DNA of 36,126 nucleotides from Clostridia bacterium (GTDB lineage: Bacteria > Bacillota > Clostridia > Christensenellales > Borkfalkiaceae), in assembly GCA_017463425.1 (NCBI GenBank), contig JAFTPE010000019.1:1-36126 (forward strand). The letters are read 5' to 3'. The notes under the pieces were generated by a model, which did not search any database, was not told where the DNA came from, and worked only from the letters and a program-made list of their open reading frames with translations. The position numbers were made by a program, and so were the translations under genes. This document shows, piece after piece, positions 17,302 to 29,680 of the stretch (the first letter of the stretch is position 1; every line of letters starts with the position of its first letter).

Positions 17302-17703
17302 TTATCCGCCTTTGGTTTGATACCAAATCACCAAGAAAACAATTCCGACAAGGAAGAAAAACAAGCCCGTAAAAAAGATACTGCTATCCCCTTTACCGCT
17401 GAGGTTTTCGCTCTTCCTTTCGCGATATTGCGCGTACGTTTCTTCGTCTTTTTTATACATTGGAATAAAGAACCGCAACGTTCTTTTGAAAATGTACCCA
17501 AGGGAAATGAAAACGCCTTCACTGCTGACGAATAACAAACCGAAAAAGAGCATCATCAACAAACCTGCCGTCGTAAACGCGTCGCATAACACCGTTACGT
17601 TGATATTGAAACCCTTGATGGCAAAGACAAAAAATACAATCCCTGCCCCCACGCAAAAACAAATAAGATATTTTTTTAATAATGCTTTTTTATCATTATT
17701 CAC
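17302..17703 (-). CDS. DUF3899-like small membrane protein
   Basis: A 133-residue protein with three predicted membrane segments (about 13-29, 38-59 and 107-128). A basic, hydrophilic loop (about 70-103) lies between the second and third. Size and pattern match DUF3899 proteins, common in Clostridia and of unknown function. It starts 28 bp after oppF and is the last gene of the operon, so it may be expressed with the peptide transporter. A direct role in transport is not shown. Confidence 0.65.
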   Translation of the reverse strand: MNNDKKALLKKYLICFCVGAGIVFFVFAIKGFNINVTVLCDAFTTAGLLMMLFFGLLFVSSEGVFISLGYIFKRTLRFFIPMYKKDEETYAQYRERKSENLSGKGDSSIFFTGLFFFLVGIVFLVIWYQTKGG

Positions 17704-17731: not shown

Positions 17732-18991
17732 TTATTGCAGCTGTTGTTTATATTTTTCCTCTTCTTCGTCGTTACAATACACAAAATGCCCAGGCGCGAC
17801 CTCTCTCAAAGAGGGCAAATTCACCGAATAATCGTGTTCCGCAATCGGATTGTAAGTAATTCTCTTACGTTGCTTTTCATAATGCGGGTCGGGCAAAGGA
17901 ATTGCCGACAACAACGATTTTGTATACGGATGCAAGGGATTTTTAAACAATTCTTCGGAAGTGGCAAGCTCTACCATTTTACCAAAATACATAACGCCGA
18001 TTCTGTCCGAGAAATATTTCACAACCGACAAGTCGTGCGCGATAAACAAAATCGTAAGCCCCAAACGTTCTCTTAAATCGTTCAAAAGGTTGATAACTTG
18101 CGCCTGAATGGACACGTCGAGCGCAGAAATCGGCTCGTCTGCGATAATCATTTCCGGCTGCATAATGATTGCTCTTGCAATGCCGATACGCTGACGTTGA
18201 CCGCCTGAAAATTCGTGAGGGTAACGGTCTGCGTGTTCGCGTACCAAACCTACGACCTCCAAAATTTCATACACTTTTTGGTTTATATATTCCTTATCGC
18301 GAATACCGTTAATAATCAAGCCTTCAGCAATAATATCACGAACGGTCATACGCGGGTCTAAGGACGCAATCGGGTCTTGGAAAATCATCTGAATTTGTGT
18401 AATCAATTTGCTCTTTTTGGCGATACGGCATCTGGACGCGTATTCTTTCTTTAACGCTTTCGTTGCCGCCTCGTCGCCCTCTGCCTGAGCAAATTTTTCT
18501 TTGTATTCCGTTTCCAACGATTGTAACAAACCGTCTGCATGCATTTTATCGACGTTTCTATTGTCCGCATTCGCAGCGCGGATAAGCGCGCGGTTTTCTT
18601 CGACAATCTTATTCAAATCGTCGTTGATTTGCGTAATTTTTGCTTTAATTTCGGTTTCTTTGTCGGGATTTTCTTTCAATTCACGACGAAGAGTTTTGAT
18701 ATCCGCCGCCGCCTTTTTCTGCGCGGTTTTTATCGCGTCTTTATATGAACGCGTACCTGCCCCCACTCTTTGACCTTTGAAATAGATATTTCCCGACGTA
18801 ATGTCGTATAATTTGATAATCGAACGTCCGGTTGTCGTTTTACCGCAACCCGATTCGCCGACCAGCCCGAACACTTCGCCTTTTTTCACCTCAAAGCTGA
18901 CGTCGTCCACAGCTTTCAAATCTTTATGCCCCATACGGAAATATTGGCAAAGATGATCAACTTTCAATAAAACTTCATTGTTATTCATCAT
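17732..18991 (-). CDS. oppF: Oligopeptide ABC transporter ATPase OppF-like, with insertion
   Basis: A 419-residue ATPase of a peptide/nickel-type importer. Walker A is GESGCGKT (45-52), Q-loop Gln205 (MIFQDP), signature FSGGQRQR (261-268), Walker B MIIADEP (281-287) and switch His319. The C-terminus has the OppD/F extension ([19 protein letters not shown]). Typical OppF proteins are about 310-330 residues. The excess is a highly charged, probably coiled-coil insertion of about 110 residues (80-190) between Walker A and the Q-loop. The start overlaps the oppD stop by 4 bp (ATGA). It works as a heterodimer with OppD. Confidence 0.9.
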
Positions 18992-21237
18992 TTCTCGCCT
19001 CCTCTTTCGTTCATACGCTTAATGCGTTCGGTAATAATGGGGGGAATTTCCACCTTTTCTGCATTGGGGTGCAACAGCCAAGTCGCCGCGTAATGCGTAG
19101 GAGAAACCTCAAACATAGGCGGTTGCATTTCAAAATCTATCTGCATTGCGTATTTATTTCGTTCCGCAAACGCGTCGCCAACGGGAGGATAAATCATATT
19201 CGGCGGAGTGCCGGGGATTGCGTCCAATTTTTCGTTGGTATCCAAGTCAGGCATAGACGACAGCAACGCCCACGTATACGGATGGCGGGGATCGTAGAAA
19301 ATATCGTCCGCCGTACCGTATTCGACAATTTTACCCGCGTACATAACCGCGATTCTGTCTGCCATATTTGCAACAACGCCCAAATCGTGCGTGATGAAGA
19401 TAATGGAAAGATCACGTTCTTTCTTTAATTTATTGATAAGTTCGAGAATCTGCGCCTGAATGGTAACGTCGAGCGCCGTTGTAGGCTCGTCGCAAATCAA
19501 GATATCGGGGTTTGCCGACAACGCAATCGCGATAACGATACGCTGACGCATACCGCCCGAAAATTCAAACGGGTATTGATTGTAACGAATTCTGGGTTCG
19601 GGAATACCAACCTCTTCCATCAATTTGATTGCCTTTTCTTTCGCAATACGCTTGGTCAATTTATAAACGACCTGCGACGCTTTTTCTTTCAGATAATCAA
19701 TGAGTTCTACACAGCGCTTATCCACGTCTACGCTGTCCGCATTTTCAATATCTGCCTTGAACTTCGTGATAACACGATCCAATACGGAAACAATGCTCTC
19801 AATCTGCTTTTCAGGTTCGACAATGAATTTGGGAACGACTTTCCAATCCACCTTTTTGCCTTTGGCGAGCAACGCTTCGCGTTTTGCAGTTTGACGAGCG
19901 AACCGCGCCTCTTCCTTGGGATTGTTCTTCAAATAGAAGAAATATTTCTCCACTTCTCTATCCAACGCGCCGCTAAACGTATACGCCACGTTGTCTTTCA
20001 CTACGTCCAAAGGATTTATCGCGTCAAGCACCGCTTTGGAAACGTTTTTACAAGCGGTAGCCGCGTCGCTTGCCGCGAAACCGCCCTTTTTAAAGAACGC
20101 AACTGCCTCTTCCAAAGCCGCCACCGCCGCTTTTTTATTATCCAAAGCCTGCGCCGCCGCGTATGCAACCGCGTCCTTTTCAAGAGCCATAAAATCGTTC
20201 ATATAATCTTCCATAAGGAATTTATACGCCATTTCATTGGCTTCGTCCGCGGGCATTTGACTAAGGTCTGCCTCAGGGTTCTTGTATACATAATAACCGA
20301 TTCTGAAGAAATTATACGCAGGTTGCGCCAACATTTCCGTTACGGTGTTTTTGATTTCTCCGCAAAGCTGAATAATCGTTTGCGAAACCTCAGCTACCGC
20401 TTTTTTACGACCAACCAAACCTTTGATCGTATCGCCAAGCGTCGTCTTGGCTTTTTCTTCGGAAATTGCCTCGTTGATGCGTACCAGGTACGCGTTTAAA
20501 TCGTCCGTATACTTGCCAACGAAGTATTTATCTTGCATAGCTTGCAGCTTACGCACAATCGATTTCAACGTTATAACGCCGTCCACTTTCTGTTTCTTTT
20601 CTGCGAGGAATAAAAAGTCGTCAATAATAGAAATGAGTTCTTCCGCTGCATTTTTTGCGTTGTTATAACCGTTTTCCAAGGAAATCGCTTTGATATTAAA
20701 GCCGTCAAAAGTGCGAATATATTCGCTGACTTTTTCCAAATATGCAGTTGCTTTTTCCGCATCTTCGACGCTGCCGATTGTTTTCTTTTCCGTCAACGCC
20801 GCCGTCATTTTTTCCGAAAGCTGCGCAAGCATTTTATTGAACGCCGCGCGCCCTTCCTTACGGTTGGCTTTATTTTTCAAAAGCATAGCCTCCGTAATCT
20901 GTCTGCCGATACGCATAATCGGGTCAAGCGCGGATAACGGGTCTTGGAAAATCATAGCGATTTTGTCGCCACGGAGTTTGTGCATTTCCTCTTCGGGAAT
21001 ACGCACCAAATCCTGCCCGTCGTACAAAATTTCACCGCTTTCAATAATGGCGTTTGCCGCGGAAATGCCAATGACCGCCTTAGACGTAACCGATTTACCC
21101 GAGCCAGATTCGCCAACGATTGCCAAGGTTTCGCCTTTGTACAAGTTAAAGGAAATATCACGAACCGCCTGCACTTTACCTGCCTGCGTACGGAAAGAAA
21201 CGACCAAATTTTTAACTTCTAATTTCTTTTCCATCAT
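18988..21237 (-). CDS. oppD: Oligopeptide ABC transporter ATPase OppD-like, with a ~400-residue insertion
   Basis: A 749-residue protein, more than twice the normal OppD length of about 330-350. Catalytic motifs are complete: Walker A GESGSGKS (42-49), Q-loop Gln98 (MIFQDP), signature FSGGMRQR (559-566), Walker B ILICDEP (579-585), D-loop TALD (587-590) and switch His617. The C-terminus has the OppD tail (RHPYTWALLSSMPDL, PGTPPNMIYPP). Between the Q-loop region and the signature, residues about 130-530 are inserted. They are rich in Ala, Lys and Glu, look mainly helical, and have no family I recognise. The reading frame is uninterrupted and translationally coupled on both sides, so it is not an assembly accident. 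Confidence 0.9.
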   Translation of the reverse strand: MMEKKLEVKNLVVSFRTQAGKVQAVRDISFNLYKGETLAIVGESGSGKSVTSKAVIGISAANAIIESGEILYDGQDLVRIPEEEMHKLRGDKIAMIFQDPLSALDPIMRIGRQITEAMLLKNKANRKEGRAAFNKMLAQLSEKMTAALTEKKTIGSVEDAEKATAYLEKVSEYIRTFDGFNIKAISLENGYNNAKNAAEELISIIDDFLFLAEKKQKVDGVITLKSIVRKLQAMQDKYFVGKYTDDLNAYLVRINEAISEEKAKTTLGDTIKGLVGRKKAVAEVSQTIIQLCGEIKNTVTEMLAQPAYNFFRIGYYVYKNPEADLSQMPADEANEMAYKFLMEDYMNDFMALEKDAVAYAAAQALDNKKAAVAALEEAVAFFKKGGFAASDAATACKNVSKAVLDAINPLDVVKDNVAYTFSGALDREVEKYFFYLKNNPKEEARFARQTAKREALLAKGKKVDWKVVPKFIVEPEKQIESIVSVLDRVITKFKADIENADSVDVDKRCVELIDYLKEKASQVVYKLTKRIAKEKAIKLMEEVGIPEPRIRYNQYPFEFSGGMRQRIVIAIALSANPDILICDEPTTALDVTIQAQILELINKLKKERDLSIIFITHDLGVVANMADRIAVMYAGKIVEYGTADDIFYDPRHPYTWALLSSMPDLDTNEKLDAIPGTPPNMIYPPVGDAFAERNKYAMQIDFEMQPPMFEVSPTHYAATWLLHPNAEKVEIPPIITERIKRMNERGGEK

Positions 21238-21238
21238 A

Positions 21239-22795
21239 TCAATCCTCCGAGCCTCTCAGCGAAGGGTTAAACGCGTCGCGCAAACCGTTACCGAACAAGT
21301 TAAAGCTGAGCAACAACAAAGCCAAGAACACAGCAGGAAACATTGCAACGTGAGGAATCCCCAAACGTAACAACCCTTGTCCGTTTGCGAGTATCGTACC
21401 AACACTGGTCAAATCCCCCGACGTCAAACTGATAATCCCCAAATAACTCAAATTAACTTCCGAATAAATCATAGACGGAATAATCAAGGCACACTTGGTT
21501 ACCAACGTACCGAGCGCGTTAGGGAAAACGTGTTTCCATATAATTCTTCTATCTTTTGCGCCAAGCGTCCGAGCAGCCAAGACGTATTCTTGATTTTTAA
21601 AACGATAAAACTGCATACGAGTCGAAGCTGCCATTCCTATCCACCCCGTTGCAAAGAACGCAACGAATAGGATAACAATCGGTCCCGAATTCCCCATATG
21701 CAACCGAAGTAGCGTAATAACGATTACGGTAGGAATTGAACCCAAAATCTCGGAAAAACGTTCCATCGCCAAGTCGAGCTTTCCACCGTAATATCCTTCG
21801 ATTGCCCCGTAAATTGCACCAACGGTAAGGTTAACTACCGCTACGGCGATTGCAAACGCAAACGAGAAGAATGCACCCGACGCCATACACGTGAAAATAT
21901 CTTGTCCTCCATTTGTCGTACCAAACAAGAACGAGGGCTTTTCAATTCCGTCTTTCAACACGTAGCTATGATAATAAATATAATATTCGTAATAATTTAC
22001 ACGAATTTCATATCCCGTATCGATTGGCAACGCGTATTCGTAAACCATACCGTTTTCCCCGTCGCCTTCAATACGAATGGAATTATAATTATCGTTCGAT
22101 TTTTTCCCTTCTTCGTGAGATTTATAAACAGGAATTATATCACCGTTTTCGTCGTAAACGATTTGGAGTCTGCCGTTTTTAGCCTCTGTTTTATACCAAT
22201 AATTGGCAATCATATTTTGCCCAACGTAAATTGACGCAGGACGGTTTCTCTTCGCGACAGTGGGATAAATAACCTGAATACCTGTTTCATTTTGATATTT
22301 TTGGATATTCTCGTATTCGGCTGCTTCTACTTTTTTATAAATACACCCCGTCGAATGATAGGAATCCCAACGTACGTTATACAACTTACCCGATTGCGTG
22401 TATTTTTGATTTTTAATCGCGTTATGCCCTGATTCTTCGCCAATATAATAATAATAATCGAACGTTTCTTTATTCAGCGACTTGTCTTCGCAACCGTCCC
22501 AAAAATTGGTGTTTGCGAACCATTCGCACTTTGGCAGAGTATGAATAAAGTACGTATCGTTATATGACACGGCGTAAGGAGTCAATAACGAACCGAACGC
22601 TGCATATAAGAACAGAAAAAGAATAACGATCGCACCAACAATCGCGCCTTTATTTTTACAAAAACGGGACATTGCGTCCTGAAAATAGGTACGCGGTTTT
22701 GTCTCGAATTTTTTATCGTGAGAAATATCCCCAGACGAAAACTTGAATTTTTCCTTAGGAATATTCATTATATCCATATTTTTCAATTCGCTCAT
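21239..22795 (-). CDS. oppC: Oligopeptide ABC transporter permease OppC-like, with extracellular insertion
   Basis: A 518-residue permease; usual OppC is about 300. An N-terminal cytoplasmic tail leads to membrane helix 1 (about 51-72). About 200 extra residues (80-285) rich in Tyr, Asn and charged residues follow before the conserved FGTTNGGQDIF (291-301), where the normal transmembrane core resumes. The insertion lies outside the membrane by family topology. The coupling loop is present (EYVLAARTLGAKDRRIIWKHVFPNA). It starts one base after oppB and ends one base before oppD. Confidence 0.9.
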   Translation of the reverse strand: MSELKNMDIMNIPKEKFKFSSGDISHDKKFETKPRTYFQDAMSRFCKNKGAIVGAIVILFLFLYAAFGSLLTPYAVSYNDTYFIHTLPKCEWFANTNFWDGCEDKSLNKETFDYYYYIGEESGHNAIKNQKYTQSGKLYNVRWDSYHSTGCIYKKVEAAEYENIQKYQNETGIQVIYPTVAKRNRPASIYVGQNMIANYWYKTEAKNGRLQIVYDENGDIIPVYKSHEEGKKSNDNYNSIRIEGDGENGMVYEYALPIDTGYEIRVNYYEYYIYYHSYVLKDGIEKPSFLFGTTNGGQDIFTCMASGAFFSFAFAIAVAVVNLTVGAIYGAIEGYYGGKLDLAMERFSEILGSIPTVIVITLLRLHMGNSGPIVILFVAFFATGWIGMAASTRMQFYRFKNQEYVLAARTLGAKDRRIIWKHVFPNALGTLVTKCALIIPSMIYSEVNLSYLGIISLTSGDLTSVGTILANGQGLLRLGIPHVAMFPAVFLALLLLSFNLFGNGLRDAFNPSLRGSED

Positions 22796-22796
22796 A

Positions 22797-23759
22797 TTAT
22801 TTCGCCCCCATTCTAATTCTGGGATCTATAATCCCGTAACTGATATCGATAATAATACCTGCCGCCAAACCGACAAGGGTATAGAACCCCGAAAGCAACA
22901 TAAAGAAATCGTAATCCAACACCGTAATGGATTTCAAATACAATCCACCAACGCCAGGAATATCGAAAATATTTTCAATAATCATCGAGCCGCTTAATAC
23001 CGAAACGAATTCCCCTAAAATCATAGGAAAAATAGGCACCATTGCATTTCTCAATGCGTGCCGAATCGTTGCTTGCCCACGCGTCAACCCTTTCGTTCTT
23101 GCAAGCAACATAAATTCTCCCGTTAATACTTCCGTCAATTCGGCACGCGTATATCGCGCGTATCCTGCAATCGAGCCAAAGCACAACGAGAACACCGCAG
23201 GAAGCATAGATTTGAACATTTCCCACGAAAAATAATCCGTACCGCTTTCCATACGCAAAGGAAACCAGCCGAGTTTAAAACATAAAACGTACTGAATTAA
23301 AAACGCAAAAACAATGGAAGGAATCGATATCATTACGATAACGCCCGTAGAAATCACTTGGTCTTGCCACTTATTCTTTTTTAACGCCGCCAAAATACCA
23401 AGCCCCAAACCAATGGGAACACCAATCAGCGAAGAATAAACGTTAATCAAAATCGTAGGCGGTAAACGAGAAACGAATCCGTCCCAAATCGGTTGATTTA
23501 TATAGCCTGGCATCGTCGTACCAATACCGAAATCCCCCTCGGTAACGATTCTAACCACGTAATTCCACAACTGTACGGGAATCGGGTCGTAATAACCGCG
23601 TTCGCGCAGTTTCATTTCTATCAACTGCTTATCAACCCCCAATCCCTCGCCCAAAGGAATAGGCAACAATTTAATCAGAACGAAACAGGTAACGATAATG
23701 ATAGAAAACGTCATCAACATCAACCCGATTCGTTTTAATATATACTTTAACATATACAT
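22797..23759 (-). CDS. oppB: Oligopeptide ABC transporter permease OppB-like
   Basis: About 320 residues, the normal size, with about six membrane helices. The start at 23759 is preferred over an upstream ATG at 23786 because GGGAGGA lies 10 bases before it and the family-typical N-terminus (MLKYILKRIGLM) follows. Family features include the N-terminal TM, an extracellular region with RERGYYDPIPVQLWNYV and GDFGIGTT, and the coupling loop EFMLLARTKGLTRGQATIRHALRNAMVP. It forms the channel with OppC. It is the only transport subunit in this operon without enlargement. Confidence 0.92.
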   Translation of the reverse strand: MYMLKYILKRIGLMLMTFSIIIVTCFVLIKLLPIPLGEGLGVDKQLIEMKLRERGYYDPIPVQLWNYVVRIVTEGDFGIGTTMPGYINQPIWDGFVSRLPPTILINVYSSLIGVPIGLGLGILAALKKNKWQDQVISTGVIVMISIPSIVFAFLIQYVLCFKLGWFPLRMESGTDYFSWEMFKSMLPAVFSLCFGSIAGYARYTRAELTEVLTGEFMLLARTKGLTRGQATIRHALRNAMVPIFPMILGEFVSVLSGSMIIENIFDIPGVGGLYLKSITVLDYDFFMLLSGFYTLVGLAAGIIIDISYGIIDPRIRMGAK

Positions 23760-23791
23760 AGTGATAAAATCCTCCCATTTCAACAACCCAA

Positions 23792-23823
23792 ACAGCGGAG
23801 ATAAGTTTCCTTATCTCCGCTGT
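23792..23823 (-). promoter_or_regulatory. Stable hairpin between oppA and oppB
   Basis: A 14-bp perfect stem (23792-23805 with 23810-23823) with a four-base loop sits between the oppA stop and the oppB RBS. No T-run follows on the minus strand, so it is unlikely to be a full terminator. It probably protects the 3' end of a processed oppA mRNA, giving excess binding protein over permease, as in other binding-protein operons. Confidence 0.65.
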
Positions 23824-23840
23824 CTGAATCGTTACTTTAA

Positions 23841-26444
23841 TCAATCACGACCAAACAAATAGTTCAACGTGCCACCGTTTTCAGCTACGAACGCAGCCCA
23901 TTCCGTATCATCATAATTATACGTCATATAACGGGTACCGCCGTAACCAACGAAGGTATTGTATTCATAAGAGATATAATCGCACTTATAGCTCATAAGG
24001 CTTCCCGCGAATTTCGAGAATACAGGAACTGAATAGTAAGCGTTGAGAACCGTCGCTTCGATTTCGCCAAGAATTACCAACTTGTCTTCGATAGGATACA
24101 ACGAGAAGTTGGGAAGAGATTTACCTGCTTCGCCCTTGCCTTGAATAGCGTCGCTCCATTCCGCAAGGTTAAACGTATATTCACCGCCTTCGTGCGTATC
24201 GTCGCCTTGAACATTAACTGTTACACTAACCGCTTTAGGATCCCAACCTTGCGCATAACGGTTTGCACCTTCAATTTGCGTAGCGCACAACAAGTAGTAA
24301 GGATTGAACGGTGCGTTACCCCATCCGCTGAAAATTAAATCGTATTCGCCATCTCTGAATTGCTTCGACCAAGTTGCAGACGAGAAGTAGAAGTATTCGA
24401 TTTCAATCTTGTCTTCCAAAGGCGTACCTACCGTAGCTGCGTCAAACGCCGCTTGGAACCAATTCTTAACACGGTCGGTATTTTCGCTTTGCTGTTCGAT
24501 ACCGTAGGTAAGAACAACCTTCATATCGTCCGTGAAATCGCCTGCCTCTTTTGCTTCGTTATAAGCCTGCGTCATCAATTCTCTTGCGAGCGTAATGTTG
24601 TAACCCGTCATTGCGTCCAAAGCGTCGTCGATATCCGTATATTCTACCGCACCAACTTTCCAACCGTCTTCCGTCTTGGTTGCGCCGTATGCGTTGAGGA
24701 TTGCCTCTTTCGCCTGTACGCTTTCACGATACGTCTTACCGTTTTCAACATCGTAATAGTACATATTATTCAACAAACCGAGTGCCGCCAAGGAAGAAGG
24801 ATTGTTCTTCGCACAGTAATCGTCACGGTCAAGCATCAAGGAAATCGCTTTACGGAAAGATTCATAATTCAACAATTTGTTCGTTTTACCGTCTTCCGTT
24901 TTGTTTGCTCTCGATTGAAGATTCAAACAATAGGTATACGTTTCGGGCGTGAAGTACGCGCGGCTGGAATTTCTGTATTCTTCCGCAATCGTAACGTCCA
25001 TACCAACGCCGTCGATTTCACCTTTTTGGAACATTTGCCAAGCGGTAGACCATTCGCTTACCTTATCGCAAACGATTCTATCCGTTTGATATTGACCCTT
25101 ATATTCGTCCATACCATAACCGTACCATTTTTCGTTACGGGAAAGGGTGTAGGTTACGTCCGTTTGATAATTCGTCAACTTGTAAGGGCCCCAGCTTGCG
25201 GAATTTTCAACGCTAGCCGAACAATATGTGTTCACCCAAGGGGTCTTCGTTTGGTCTTCGCAAGCCAACCACAAAGATTTCTTAACCAAGGGGAAGCTCT
25301 GCAAATAGTAAGCCGCTTCGTACGTCAAGTCGCCATTTTCATCAATGGGAGCCAACGTGCTGTCGGTTACCATAACCAATTCGTATTCGTTTTCACCTAC
25401 AAAATAGCCTACTTCATCAAAAGACATTTCGGGATAGGTATATTCGGTTACGAAGAAATCCAATTCTTCATTGGGTTCAGTTTGCCACCAACCAATAAGT
25501 TTATCCCAAGACGCTTTCAACGTTGCATCAGCTTTAATTTCAGCAAACGTTTTTCCTTGCATTGCAAGAATTTCACTAACACTTGCTTCCAATCCATAAG
25601 AATTAATAAAATAATCAACTACCGCTTCCGCCGTATAAGATGCAGGGAAACCAACCGCCGCACGAACCGAAGATTCTGCGCCACCGTAAGCCTCGTTTTC
25701 CGTAGGATTACCCAATGCGAACACAATCTTGCTGTCAAGTTCTTCAGAATATACTGCATAAGGCGAATCCGCTGCAAACCAACCCGATTGACCTTGTTTT
25801 ACGTATTCTTGCGAATTGTGAATAATGTAGTTACCGCTGTAATAATTGGAAGCGGTTTCAAACAAATACTTAGGAGAAAGCTGTTGAGACATCGTGAATA
25901 CGAAATCTTCCGCTTTGATAGGCGTGCCGTCATCCCACGTCAAATCGTTACGAAGGGTGATTGCAAACGCATGATGTCCTTCCGCTACGTCTTCCGCCGT
26001 AATACCGTATTTGCCTTCATATCTTGCCGTAACGTCTTCTAATTTCGTTGCCGCCGAATAATCAATCTCAAACCCACCAGGTACGATTTCGCCGTTTTCG
26101 TCCAACTTATAATCGAATTCGAAGAACGAGCTGTTCATATACCCTGCTAAAGAAGTATTGGTAGCGTCATTCGTCAAAATTTCGTTCCAAACGTTAGGCA
26201 TTTGAGACGTATAATCGTTATTCGTATACACTTTCGGGTCTTTGTGTCCCGTAGTGTCAACTTGTTCGATTTGACCGCTACTGCTGCTATTGCTACTATT
26301 CACACCTGCGCCGTTTTTGCCGTTGAGAACTGCACCAAGTACAACACCGCCAACAATAACAACACCAAGCGCCGATGCCGTTATCGCAACAACTTTTTTG
26401 TTCGACAACAGCTCTTTCAATTTCTCTTTGAAATTGTTTGCCAT
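23841..26444 (-). CDS. oppA: Membrane-anchored oligopeptide-binding protein OppA-like (867 residues)
   Basis: An SBP_bac_5-type extracellular binding protein. The N-terminus is a basic stretch and a hydrophobic helix (about 18-40: VVAITASALGVVIVGGVVLGAVL) with no lipobox cysteine, so it is probably held by an uncleaved membrane anchor. A Ser/Gly/Asn-rich linker follows (about 43-60). Family features include LRNDLTWDDGTPIKAEDFVFT, KLTNYQTDVTYTLSRNEKWYG, NYESFRKAISLMLDRDDY and a C-terminal GEYDLIFSGWGNAPFNPY. It is about 300 residues longer than usual OppA, with much of the excess between about 195 and 410. It is the first gene of the operon with its own consensus promoter. Confidence 0.9.
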   Translation of the reverse strand: MANNFKEKLKELLSNKKVVAITASALGVVIVGGVVLGAVLNGKNGAGVNSSNSSSSGQIEQVDTTGHKDPKVYTNNDYTSQMPNVWNEILTNDATNTSLAGYMNSSFFEFDYKLDENGEIVPGGFEIDYSAATKLEDVTARYEGKYGITAEDVAEGHHAFAITLRNDLTWDDGTPIKAEDFVFTMSQQLSPKYLFETASNYYSGNYIIHNSQEYVKQGQSGWFAADSPYAVYSEELDSKIVFALGNPTENEAYGGAESSVRAAVGFPASYTAEAVVDYFINSYGLEASVSEILAMQGKTFAEIKADATLKASWDKLIGWWQTEPNEELDFFVTEYTYPEMSFDEVGYFVGENEYELVMVTDSTLAPIDENGDLTYEAAYYLQSFPLVKKSLWLACEDQTKTPWVNTYCSASVENSASWGPYKLTNYQTDVTYTLSRNEKWYGYGMDEYKGQYQTDRIVCDKVSEWSTAWQMFQKGEIDGVGMDVTIAEEYRNSSRAYFTPETYTYCLNLQSRANKTEDGKTNKLLNYESFRKAISLMLDRDDYCAKNNPSSLAALGLLNNMYYYDVENGKTYRESVQAKEAILNAYGATKTEDGWKVGAVEYTDIDDALDAMTGYNITLARELMTQAYNEAKEAGDFTDDMKVVLTYGIEQQSENTDRVKNWFQAAFDAATVGTPLEDKIEIEYFYFSSATWSKQFRDGEYDLIFSGWGNAPFNPYYLLCATQIEGANRYAQGWDPKAVSVTVNVQGDDTHEGGEYTFNLAEWSDAIQGKGEAGKSLPNFSLYPIEDKLVILGEIEATVLNAYYSVPVFSKFAGSLMSYKCDYISYEYNTFVGYGGTRYMTYNYDDTEWAAFVAENGGTLNYLFGRD

Positions 26445-27091: not shown

Positions 27092-28330
27092 TTAGCCGTT
27101 GATAACGTTCATTTTCGTTACCAACACTTCGCTATCCACTGCGTCAAACACGTCTTTTGCGCTGACACCGACGAAATCTTCGCCCAACATTTCCTTGATA
27201 TTTCCACTCGCGGAAAAGTCCGTAAGGCGAGCCGTGATTTTCCCGTTCTCCACCAAAAATGCCAACTGCACGGGCATACCCACTACGCCCTCCGTCGTCA
27301 TATCGCCACCCGAAGTAATGGCAATATACACGGCTTTTTCCGCGCCTAACATTGTTTTCAAATCGGGTGCGGTACGTTTCAGATACAGACCAGGCACACC
27401 GATAGACGGAACTCCGTCGTAAGGCGCAGCCGACGTTTTCGACAACGGTAAGTTGAACATTGTCGAGGTATTTTTATTGTTTAACACGTTTTTAAACGTT
27501 CCGTTTTCAATAATGGGCGCGCGATAGTCTTTCGCGATTTCGCCCTCGGAATCGTAAAATGCCGCCGCGCGATTGGTTTTGGGGTTTCTATCGATACAAA
27601 CGCTGAGGTTTTCATTGAAGATTTTTTCACCCAATTTACCGCTGAACAGCGAACCGCCCGAAATATAATATTCGGCGATAAAATCTTTGACTACATTGCC
27701 TAAAACGTCATAGGGCGCAACGATTACGGGGTATTTCCCGTCGGGCAGCGTTACTTTTTCCCCGAAAAACGCGTCGTGCAAAGTTTTCATATCGTTGACG
27801 ATTTTGTTTTCCGTTATTTTTCCGTAAGTGGACACGTTGGTTTGATAATACGCGTCCGCGATATTGGACGAATCTTTATCCTTTACTTGGAAAAACACGG
27901 TAAACGAATTGTTTTCATACGCCAAATCGGTATCTTGCGAGTTTTTATAACTGCCTTTACGGCGAATTGCTTGCGTTTTGCCGTTGATTAAAAACCGAGG
28001 ACAAGCGTTTGCCACTTTTTTCGCCAAACGCTTGGTCGTGCGAATCAAATCCTGTTCCGCCACGACGGCTTTGTCGCGAATAACGCTCTTTTTCACGCCC
28101 TTATTCAATTTGCAAGGATACGGAATCCCGTCGTTTAATTTTTCTTTCGCCTGTTTTTCGAGCGCCGTCCAATCCGCGTCGCCCAACGCGCCCGCTACGC
28201 CGATTTTATCGTTATCGTATACGCGTACCGTCGATTGCGTTTCATCTTTTACACGATAGGAATCTACTTTCCCGTCCGTAACGTTTAACGTGATTTCGTT
28301 GCTGACATTTACCAAATATTCTTTTTGCAT
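27092..28330 (-). CDS. TldE/PmbA-family protein (metalloprotease partner subunit)
   Basis: A 412-residue protein of the TldD/PmbA superfamily without the HExxxH zinc motif, as expected for the inactive TldE/PmbA subunit. Family features include KYPVIVAPYDVLGNVVKDFIAEYYISGGSLFSGKLGEKIFNENLSV in the C-terminal beta-rich domain and the NKNTSTMFNLP region. TldD and TldE form a heterodimer that degrades unfolded peptides and trims leader peptides of some modified peptides such as microcin B17. It lies 12 bp after the tldD-like gene with an AAGGAGGGG RBS. No precursor peptide or modification gene is visible. Confidence 0.85.
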   Translation of the reverse strand: MQKEYLVNVSNEITLNVTDGKVDSYRVKDETQSTVRVYDNDKIGVAGALGDADWTALEKQAKEKLNDGIPYPCKLNKGVKKSVIRDKAVVAEQDLIRTTKRLAKKVANACPRFLINGKTQAIRRKGSYKNSQDTDLAYENNSFTVFFQVKDKDSSNIADAYYQTNVSTYGKITENKIVNDMKTLHDAFFGEKVTLPDGKYPVIVAPYDVLGNVVKDFIAEYYISGGSLFSGKLGEKIFNENLSVCIDRNPKTNRAAAFYDSEGEIAKDYRAPIIENGTFKNVLNNKNTSTMFNLPLSKTSAAPYDGVPSIGVPGLYLKRTAPDLKTMLGAEKAVYIAITSGGDMTTEGVVGMPVQLAFLVENGKITARLTDFSASGNIKEMLGEDFVGVSAKDVFDAVDSEVLVTKMNVING

Positions 28331-28342
28331 AATTCCCCTCCT

Positions 28343-29680
28343 TTACTGCGCGAACATTTTCGAGATACGCACGTGCGGACCGCCAAACCCAACGGGCAAA
28401 GGATACTGTTCGTTCTTACCGCAACCGCCGGAAACGAAACTCATAAATTCTACTTTGTCCGAAAGCCCGTCGATAAGCCCTAACGTTGTGAATACGTCGC
28501 CCGTGATAACGCTTATTTTAACGGGACGCGTAATTTTTCCATCTACGATTTCATACGCAACGTTCGGGGCAATCGTGAACTTACTCATACCCGAACCGTG
28601 TTTCACGCTCTTGATATAATATCCGAATTTCACGCCAGCGAACAATTCTTCTTTGGTATATTCACCCTTTTCGATATACGTATTGGTCATACGCACGATA
28701 GGTTCAAACGTACAATTTACCGCGCGCGCATTGCCCGTCATTTTTTCTTTTAAATACGCGGACGTTGCGCCGCTGTGCAATCTGCCTGCCAACACCCCGT
28801 TCTTGATTAGATAATTTTTACGCGCTTTCGTCCCCTCGTCGTCGTAAGGCACGTAACCGCTTCCAAGCGATTTACCGCAGTCCACAATCGAAAGCAAGGG
28901 CGAAGCCACCGTCTTGCCAATTTGCCACTCACGGCGGATTCCCTCATCCGCGAGCATAAAGTCTGCCTCCGATTTATGCCCGAACGATTCGTGCGCGAAA
29001 ATCCCAGCCGCTTCTGGCGAAAGGATAACGGGATATTCCCCCGGCGTAATCGCCACTTCGTTTTTCATACATTCGATTTGTTCGTCGAACGCCGCCTTGA
29101 TTTCCTTCCCTTTGCCTTTTAAAGCGGAAAAACGCGTATGCCCAATTTGATGATGCGCCTGGAAGAATTTTTCCCCCTCCGCGAGTGTACAAGCAAGCAC
29201 GATTCCGCAAGTTTGATAATCGTATTTAATCGACGCGCCTTTGCTGGAATAAAATTCAAACACGCTGTTTCTGTCGAGATATATTGCCTGTGGCATAGCC
29301 ATAAGCGGAGACGACGACAAAATCGGTAAATATTTTTCAAGCAACGCTTTCTTTTCCGAAATAGGAATATTTCTTACCGAAGTATCGGAAAACGCCATTT
29401 TTTCTTCTACGTTCACTTGGTAACGGCTGACCGTTCGGTTGCGTAAAATTTTCGGATTGCTCTTTGCCTGCGCGTACAATCCGTCCAATTTATTTTGGAT
29501 ATCACCGATATCCGTCGTGGACGCGTAATACCACATTTTACCGTCAAACACACGAATAAACGCGCGTTTTTCCTTACTTTCTTTGATTTCTTTCAACATA
29601 CCGTTCATAAACGTAACGTTCGTGGAAAATCTATCCTCTATTCTTACGTCCGCGTATGCGTCTTGTTTAAACGTAAACAT
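28343..29680 (-). CDS. TldD-family zinc metalloprotease
   Basis: A 445-residue protein. The zinc site is His230-Glu231-x3-His235 (AHESFGHKSEAD), the TldD version of HExxxH. The conserved C-terminal GGCGKNEQYPLPVGFGGPHVRI carries the cysteine expected as further ligand. Other landmarks are VPYDDEGTKARKNYLIKNGVLAGRLHS and NTYIEKGEYTKEELFAGVKFGYYIKSV. Length is slightly below E. coli TldD (481). It is the active subunit, encoded upstream of its PmbA-like partner, from a consensus promoter at 29730-29758. RBS is AAGGAGGAG. Confidence 0.9.
   Translation of the reverse strand: MFTFKQDAYADVRIEDRFSTNVTFMNGMLKEIKESKEKRAFIRVFDGKMWYYASTTDIGDIQNKLDGLYAQAKSNPKILRNRTVSRYQVNVEEKMAFSDTSVRNIPISEKKALLEKYLPILSSSPLMAMPQAIYLDRNSVFEFYSSKGASIKYDYQTCGIVLACTLAEGEKFFQAHHQIGHTRFSALKGKGKEIKAAFDEQIECMKNEVAITPGEYPVILSPEAAGIFAHESFGHKSEADFMLADEGIRREWQIGKTVASPLLSIVDCGKSLGSGYVPYDDEGTKARKNYLIKNGVLAGRLHSGATSAYLKEKMTGNARAVNCTFEPIVRMTNTYIEKGEYTKEELFAGVKFGYYIKSVKHGSGMSKFTIAPNVAYEIVDGKITRPVKISVITGDVFTTLGLIDGLSDKVEFMSFVSGGCGKNEQYPLPVGFGGPHVRISKMFAQ

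Follow-up and report, generated by a model that had tools for sequence, protein, structure and literature searches.

AmiC of Streptococcus pneumoniae is an OppB-type permease. It belongs to AmiACDEF, a five-subunit oligopeptide importer of the Gram-positive Opp3/Ami type in which one permease has a large extracellular part made of two extracellular domains (ECD1 and ECD2); AmiC has 498 amino acids (aa), and in an AlphaFold model these two domains clamp the binding protein (PMC11192437, in part). A large extracytoplasmic permease loop likewise touches the binding protein in MalFGK2E, the maltose importer of E. coli, where MalF P2 moves around MalE (PMC8134467, in part). In the Dpp importer, a scoop motif on the B permease and docking of the substrate-binding protein (SBP) are known (PMC12136057, in part). 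Here, we describe an opp operon in a 36,126-nucleotide contig of a Clostridia bacterium (JAFTPE010000019.1; this whole stretch is called the window below). A preliminary description made from the sequence had proposed that OppA, OppC, OppD and OppF are enlarged while OppB is of normal size, and that the operon may define an expanded class of peptide transporter. We find that the transporter family is an ordinary one, and that it occurs here in an enlarged form that is unusual and extends across a lineage.

Results

An Opp-type operon with four enlarged subunits

In the window, whose genome assembly is 1.34 megabases and 82% complete, oppA-oppB-oppC-oppD-oppF are followed by a gene for a DUF3899 membrane protein, all on the minus strand. 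Gene lengths are counted from the first possible start and may be some tens of residues too long:

23841-26444, minus strand: oppA, substrate-binding protein (SBP_bac_5), 867 aa (PF00496, E 1.6e-29)
22797-23759, minus strand: oppB, normal-size permease, ~320 aa (PF00528, E 8.8e-33)
21239-22795, minus strand: oppC, permease, 518 aa (PF00528, E 4.5e-22; PF12911 OppC_N, E 2.3e-12)
18988-21237, minus strand: oppD, ATPase, 749 aa (PF00005, E 1.6e-27; PF08352)
17732-18991, minus strand: oppF, ATPase, 419 aa (PF00005, E 3.6e-31)
17302-17703, minus strand: DUF3899 gene, membrane protein of 133 aa and proposed accessory subunit (PF13038, E 4.9e-9)

The oppB frame is open from 23786 to 22797, and its best start is the ATG at 23759, after a GGAGG Shine-Dalgarno sequence. 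All five subunits of an Opp/Dpp-type importer are encoded in this single operon and score above Pfam cut-offs: an SBP family 5 protein, two BPD_transp_1 permeases, one of them with OppC_N, and two ATP-binding cassette (ABC) ATPases with oligo_HPY tails. BPD_transp_1_N of OppB falls slightly under its cut-off. OppA begins with a hydrophobic segment, and no lipobox was seen on inspection of its N-terminus. A search of the window's genome gave one OppC match only, with no second OppC.

We aligned the subunits with those of normal-size opp operons from the same order; in six of these (loci L040, L042-L045 and L050), OppC has 335-382, OppD 343-428 and OppF 306-356 aa. The alignments place the inserts as follows:

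25413-25832, minus strand: OppA N-lobe insert, approximately residues 205-344
21932-22573, minus strand: OppC ectodomain insert, residues 75-288 (214 aa), in the loop between transmembrane segments 1 and 2
19660-20880, minus strand: OppD insert, residues 120-526 (407 aa), in the helical subdomain
18401-18766, minus strand: OppF insert, residues 76-197 (122 aa), directly before the Q-loop

The OppD insert lies between the helix that follows the Q-loop and the helix that precedes the signature motif. The OppF insert is charged and, judging from its composition, probably helical. The OppA N-lobe stretch is ~140 aa long in the window versus 18-25 aa in five normal OppAs, and there are smaller additions in the C-lobe too; OppB has no insert. 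Thus, the enlargement of four subunits and the normal size of OppB were borne out, along with the gene coordinates. Class-wide, the inserts measure ~200-230 aa in OppC, ~350-410 aa in OppD and usually 57-270 aa in OppF. Of the four subunits, OppF is enlarged the least and with the most variation.

The ratio of nonsynonymous to synonymous substitution rates (dN/dS) was 0.03-0.21 for inserts in the 12 of 20 gene pairs with computable dS, the other eight being saturated, and 0.01-0.07 for cores in the same analysis. Purifying selection acts on the inserts, which are genuine coding sequence. We rejected a frameshift or gene-fusion artefact, since the inserts are in frame, are kept in 27-28 aligned relatives and are under purifying selection. 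No Pfam family matched the OppC ectodomain in more than one of 28 members (best PDB match, E 0.24) or the OppD insert in more than one of 27 (best PDB match, E 0.2); known Pfam domains as an account of these inserts were rejected, as they appeared in single members only, with best E 0.006-0.009.

Walker A, Q-loop, signature, Walker B and H motifs are intact in both OppD and OppF. E. coli DppD and DppF need cysteines for [4Fe-4S] clusters (DppD positions from PMC12136057, in part), whereas the window's OppD has D688, N694, D701 and T719 at the four positions, spaced by 6, 7 and 18 as in DppD, and so lacks the four oligo_HPY cysteines of an Fe-S-cluster ATPase. The other OppDs of the class do without these cysteines too. 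Among 93 aligned OppDs, these positions read DNDT or DNDS in 84 and CCCC in nine (L042-L050).

The inserts occur together across the order

We kept the best 80 of 562 OppC relatives in named genomes, and added loci from further genomes. The hosts among these best 80 are mostly uncultured gut and rumen Clostridia (Candidatus Gallimonas, Candidatus Scatosoma and others), with one cultured carrier, Anaerocaecibacter muris (L117). The 158 loci with an OppC match were reduced to 148 by merging identical OppC segments, and these, with the window, yielded 96 complete operons containing all four genes. The inserts are present in all four subunits in 88 of the 96, a within-class figure because the operons were gathered by OppC or OppD similarity. 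This supports the proposed expanded class, with outside and inside modules, on a wider scale than had been claimed. One of the 88, L034, is a degraded copy (OppA called at 458 and OppC at 399 aa, with an in-frame stop in oppC).

An order-wide search of 297 genomes, which is independent of gene adjacency, detected the OppD insert in 47 and the OppC ectodomain in 48, with both in 44; 7.6 were expected if the two were independent. Two of the genomes with the OppD insert only (G410 and G548) have large OppCs of another type (628 and 645 aa), and the third (G612) gave a weak match and has no opp genes. In all four genomes with the OppC ectodomain only (G470, G517, G600 and G607), the contig breaks off at this place. 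In a phylum sample of 299 genomes, each insert profile matched only the window's own genome. A whole enlarged opp set, with an OppA lacking a lipobox, was also found on a contig labelled Sphaerochaetaceae (Spirochaetota; L127, 4907-13726), which suggests that the entire unit was transferred, or else that the contig carries a wrong label.

Size variants were observed as well. L212, L216 and L233 are extra large, with OppCs of 1001 and 782 aa and an OppD of 935 aa. In L046-L049, a different type of enlarged OppC, whose loop has 323-395 aa, is accompanied by an OppD of normal size, and DUF3899 is missing. In L203, L206, L211 and L225 a normal-size opp operon directly adjoins the enlarged one. Two hydrophobic, probably transmembrane segments lie within the OppF insert of L109, L112, L117 and L122, the second some 10 residues ahead of the Q-loop strand, a hint that this loop is close to the membrane. 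The L117 insert, the only one of the four tested, had no Pfam match, and a DUF3592-like domain there was rejected for lack of Pfam support. Nine operons (L100, L102, L106, L107, L114, L115, L126, L129 and L215) extend the OppF N-terminus by ~400 residues, bounded by two hydrophobic segments ~320-350 residues apart; the ATPase is here fused to a possible ectodomain.

DUF3899 is linked to Opp operons in general

The window's DUF3899 protein passes the PF13038 gathering cut-off (36.9 versus 23.4 bits), and 106 of 109 small open reading frames downstream of oppF match PF13038 at a threshold of E 0.001. Where both the oppF end and the space beyond are covered by sequence, DUF3899 adjoins 116 of 118 class operons: 113 lie downstream on the same strand, two (L052 and L225) start their frame inside oppF, and one (L127) is upstream of oppA. 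It was not found at the two exceptions, L102 (with 512 bases to look in) and L198. It is absent from all 11 operons L040-L050. DUF3899 scores above the cut-off in 50 of the 297 genomes of the order, and 46 of these carry the enlarged operon; in G503, G588 and G419 it adjoins a normal-size opp operon, and G358 has a broken match. Four of five other matches in the phylum sample adjoin normal-size opp genes in other arrangements, and the fifth does not; none of 14 control genomes had a match. Since DUF3899 is found beside normal-size opp operons elsewhere in Bacillota, we conclude that it is older than the enlargement and is linked to Opp in general. The suggested link of the enlarged operon to DUF3899 holds, with the qualification that some normal-size operons have it too. 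DUF3899 is probably an accessory Opp subunit, a candidate sixth; we found no paper naming the family in the literature searched. The normal-size operon of L211 seems to own a DUF3899 gene (a second match in G421), and L256 (4007-5524) encodes a 505-aa OppB-type permease whose size recalls streptococcal AmiC; OppC, OppD and OppF are of normal size there, and DUF3899 lies antisense.

A-B-C and D-F behave as separate blocks

Trees of insert-free cores, of a quick kind and with some long branches (L036, L039, L040 and L041), place the insert-bearing OppDs in one clade (FastTree support 0.94; SH-aLRT 97 with 47 rows, also counted as 37, and 94 with 27 rows, also counted as 22), indicating a single origin of the OppD insert. 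The sister group of this clade comprises the normal-size OppDs of L036, L087 and L096, whose operons already possess the OppC ectodomain. The OppF core tree does not unite the insert-bearing rows in one clade, and L121 joins these three exceptions there (support 92).

The OppA, OppB and OppC trees put L087 and L096 within the class, next to L073 and L094, and L036 in a different place. A single clade of the three exception OppAs was rejected (p 2.7e-55) by the approximately unbiased test, whose p values are optimistic throughout because the groups were named after a first FastTree run. A grouping of L087, L096, L073 and L094 was rejected both in OppD (p 0.017) and in OppF (p 0.003); placing L036 with L101 was weakly rejected for OppD (0.041) and not rejected for OppF (0.12). 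Across 51 operons, core distances correlate at 0.93-0.94 among OppA, OppB and OppC and at 0.84 between OppD and OppF, versus 0.66-0.78 between these blocks. From the tree conflicts and the agreeing core distances, we conclude that A-B-C and D-F behave as two blocks. The window operon itself is chimeric, with A-B-C and D-F from different lineages: its OppA, OppB and OppC cluster with L031, L051 and L052, L038/L039 and L061-L091 are the companions of its OppD and OppF, and the opposite placements were rejected (p 0.0007 for OppC, 1.7e-5 for OppD). L087 and L096 look like a class A-B-C half joined to a normal-size D-F half. Exchange with normal subunits, which the preliminary description held would speak against a class if free, thus occurs but is rare, the OppC enlargement being separable in 3 of 96 operons.

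Peptidase genes adjoin several operons

Two metallopeptidase genes lie upstream of oppA in the window:

27092-28330, minus strand: tldE-like metallopeptidase gene (PF19289, E 3.8e-25)
28343-29680, minus strand: tldD-like metallopeptidase gene (PF19289, E 3e-48; PF01523)

The tldE-like gene is probably in a transcription unit separate from opp. An upstream tldD/tldE pair was also found at L038, and at seven unique loci (L055, L111, L112, L122, L195, L235 and L243) the genes are directly behind DUF3899 on the same strand. The pair is therefore beside the operon at eight unique loci plus the window, with 0.55 expected for the loci by a rough estimate. TldD/E degrades or trims unfolded peptides (PMC5810440). 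Given that several lineages have tldD/tldE next to the operon, peptide is the probable cargo; it may be long and unfolded, with trimming in the cytosol. Elsewhere in the window, positions 135-605 encode a protein that, to judge from its N-terminus, resembles an IS200-type transposase.

Discussion

We consider it fairly probable that this operon represents a distinct, mostly vertically inherited class of Opp-type importer with outside and inside modules and a DUF3899 accessory subunit. Our confidence is high for the anatomy, the co-occurrence and the DUF3899 linkage, and moderate to low for the mechanism. The sequence points to a peptide ABC importer of the Opp type (type I, SBP-dependent) that has an outside module made up of the OppC ectodomain and the OppA N-lobe insert; the position of the OppC insert predicts that the ectodomain is outside the cell. 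By analogy with the AmiC domains and MalF P2, the ectodomain may clamp or steer OppA, and we infer that docking of the enlarged OppA would be its simplest role. The OppD helical-subdomain insert, usually with the OppF pre-Q-loop insert, makes up an inside module. In the cytosol, next to the ATPases, these inserts may build a helical body that serves to stabilise or regulate the complex. Such a role is made more likely by the lack of the Fe-S clusters that hold DppBCDF together, although the inserts do not seem simply to replace the clusters, since the cysteine-less OppDs of L040 and L041 have no insert. DUF3899 may be an accessory membrane subunit of Opp transporters generally, recruited before the enlargement.

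Several observations weigh against the class as we describe it. Three of the 96 operons (L035, identical with L087; L036; L096) have the OppC ectodomain with a normal OppA N-lobe, OppD and OppF, three others have little or no OppF insert (L113, L224 and L236), and two lack the OppA insert with the OppD and OppF inserts present (L039 and L198). Some DUF3899 genes have no opp genes nearby (L269; L257; G352, where the gene is on another contig). The tldDE sites represent ~4 lineages rather than nine independent events. The docking and module roles are argued from analogy, and the co-occurrence of the inserts is shown, whereas their physical or functional coupling is hypothetical. Strong insert-insert coevolution was rejected: a first Mantel residual r of 0.43 between the OppD insert and DUF3899 fell under tighter control to a weak 0.20 (0 of 1000 permutations), and to 0.15 after thinning (78 of 1000); between the OppD and OppF inserts, r was 0.03 after control.

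This weak covariation beyond the cores would be expected if the inserts were surface growths that the proteins merely tolerate, became fixed a single time in an ancestor and were co-inherited in one operon by a neutral ratchet, without joint function. The inserts also evolve faster than the cores (dN of the OppD insert is 5-10 times that of its core) and vary in length, OppF most (13 to 269 aa). We regard such drift as unlikely, since the inserts are under purifying selection and are retained wherever the operon occurs, across ~125 genera sampled in the order. Moreover, the OppA, OppD and OppF inserts are missing jointly in the same three operons, whose OppAs are not one clade, and the D-F half that the window acquired derives from another enlarged operon. 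A somewhat stronger competitor, though still doubtful, is that synteny retains DUF3899 as a bystander or a regulator, and that it is no subunit. Its orientation and position differ in distant genomes (upstream, antisense, or between oppA and oppB) and one distant match has no opp neighbour, but adjacency in the class is near-universal, even when the gene is upstream of oppA, and its repeated adjacency in unrelated arrangements points to function and not to a gene order that has merely been frozen.

The ligands of SBP family 5 proteins are of several kinds, and OppA is the most divergent part of the system (core identity 0.41). Both facts leave room for another cargo, such as an oligosaccharide or a modified peptide, with inserts that reflect the substrate. 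We consider this quite improbable, as the permeases and ATPases match best to oligopeptide models (NF043078, NF043079, Opp3B and Opp3C, all under curated cut-offs) and several lineages have peptidase genes beside the operon. A more ambitious and equally improbable proposal is a six-subunit polypeptide importer, in which the widened OppA N-lobe and the OppC ectodomain would take up long unfolded peptides, and the OppD and OppF inserts with DUF3899 would be a cytosolic receiving module that feeds the chain to TldD/TldE. If so, DUF3899 would be a previously unrecognised Opp subunit across Bacillota.

In a whole order of gut and rumen Clostridia, the textbook Opp importer thus takes a form enlarged by several hundred residues, which are spread over a permease loop, the binding protein and both ATPases. 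Our findings provide a first functional lead for DUF3899, natural hybrids (the window, L087 and L096) reveal exchangeable parts, and the cultured carrier A. muris makes structure and transport directly testable.

Among known systems, MalF offers an analogy only, being of a permease family, and having a loop, unrelated to OppC. In Ami, the OppB-type permease is enlarged, whereas in the window it is OppC, with OppB normal; the window's ATPases both have inserts, which are not described for Ami in the part of PMC11192437 used here. The best NCBIfam models for the window's ATPases are those of Mollicutes OppF (NF043078, 649 positions) and OppD (NF043079, 561 positions), systems in which both ATPases are enlarged, and the window's proteins score well below the membership cut-offs (410.7 versus 800 bits for OppF, 465.9 versus 740 bits for OppD). 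The gap against the OppF profile, from 69 to ~430, is the same stretch as the window's OppF insert. The gap against NF043079, between 71 and 298, precedes the Q-loop, and the OppD insert of the window follows it; homology of the two OppD expansions was rejected on this difference in position. In core fold family and subunit plan, the window's importer corresponds to DppABCDF and OppABCDF of E. coli, with four enlarged subunits where those systems have subunits of normal size.

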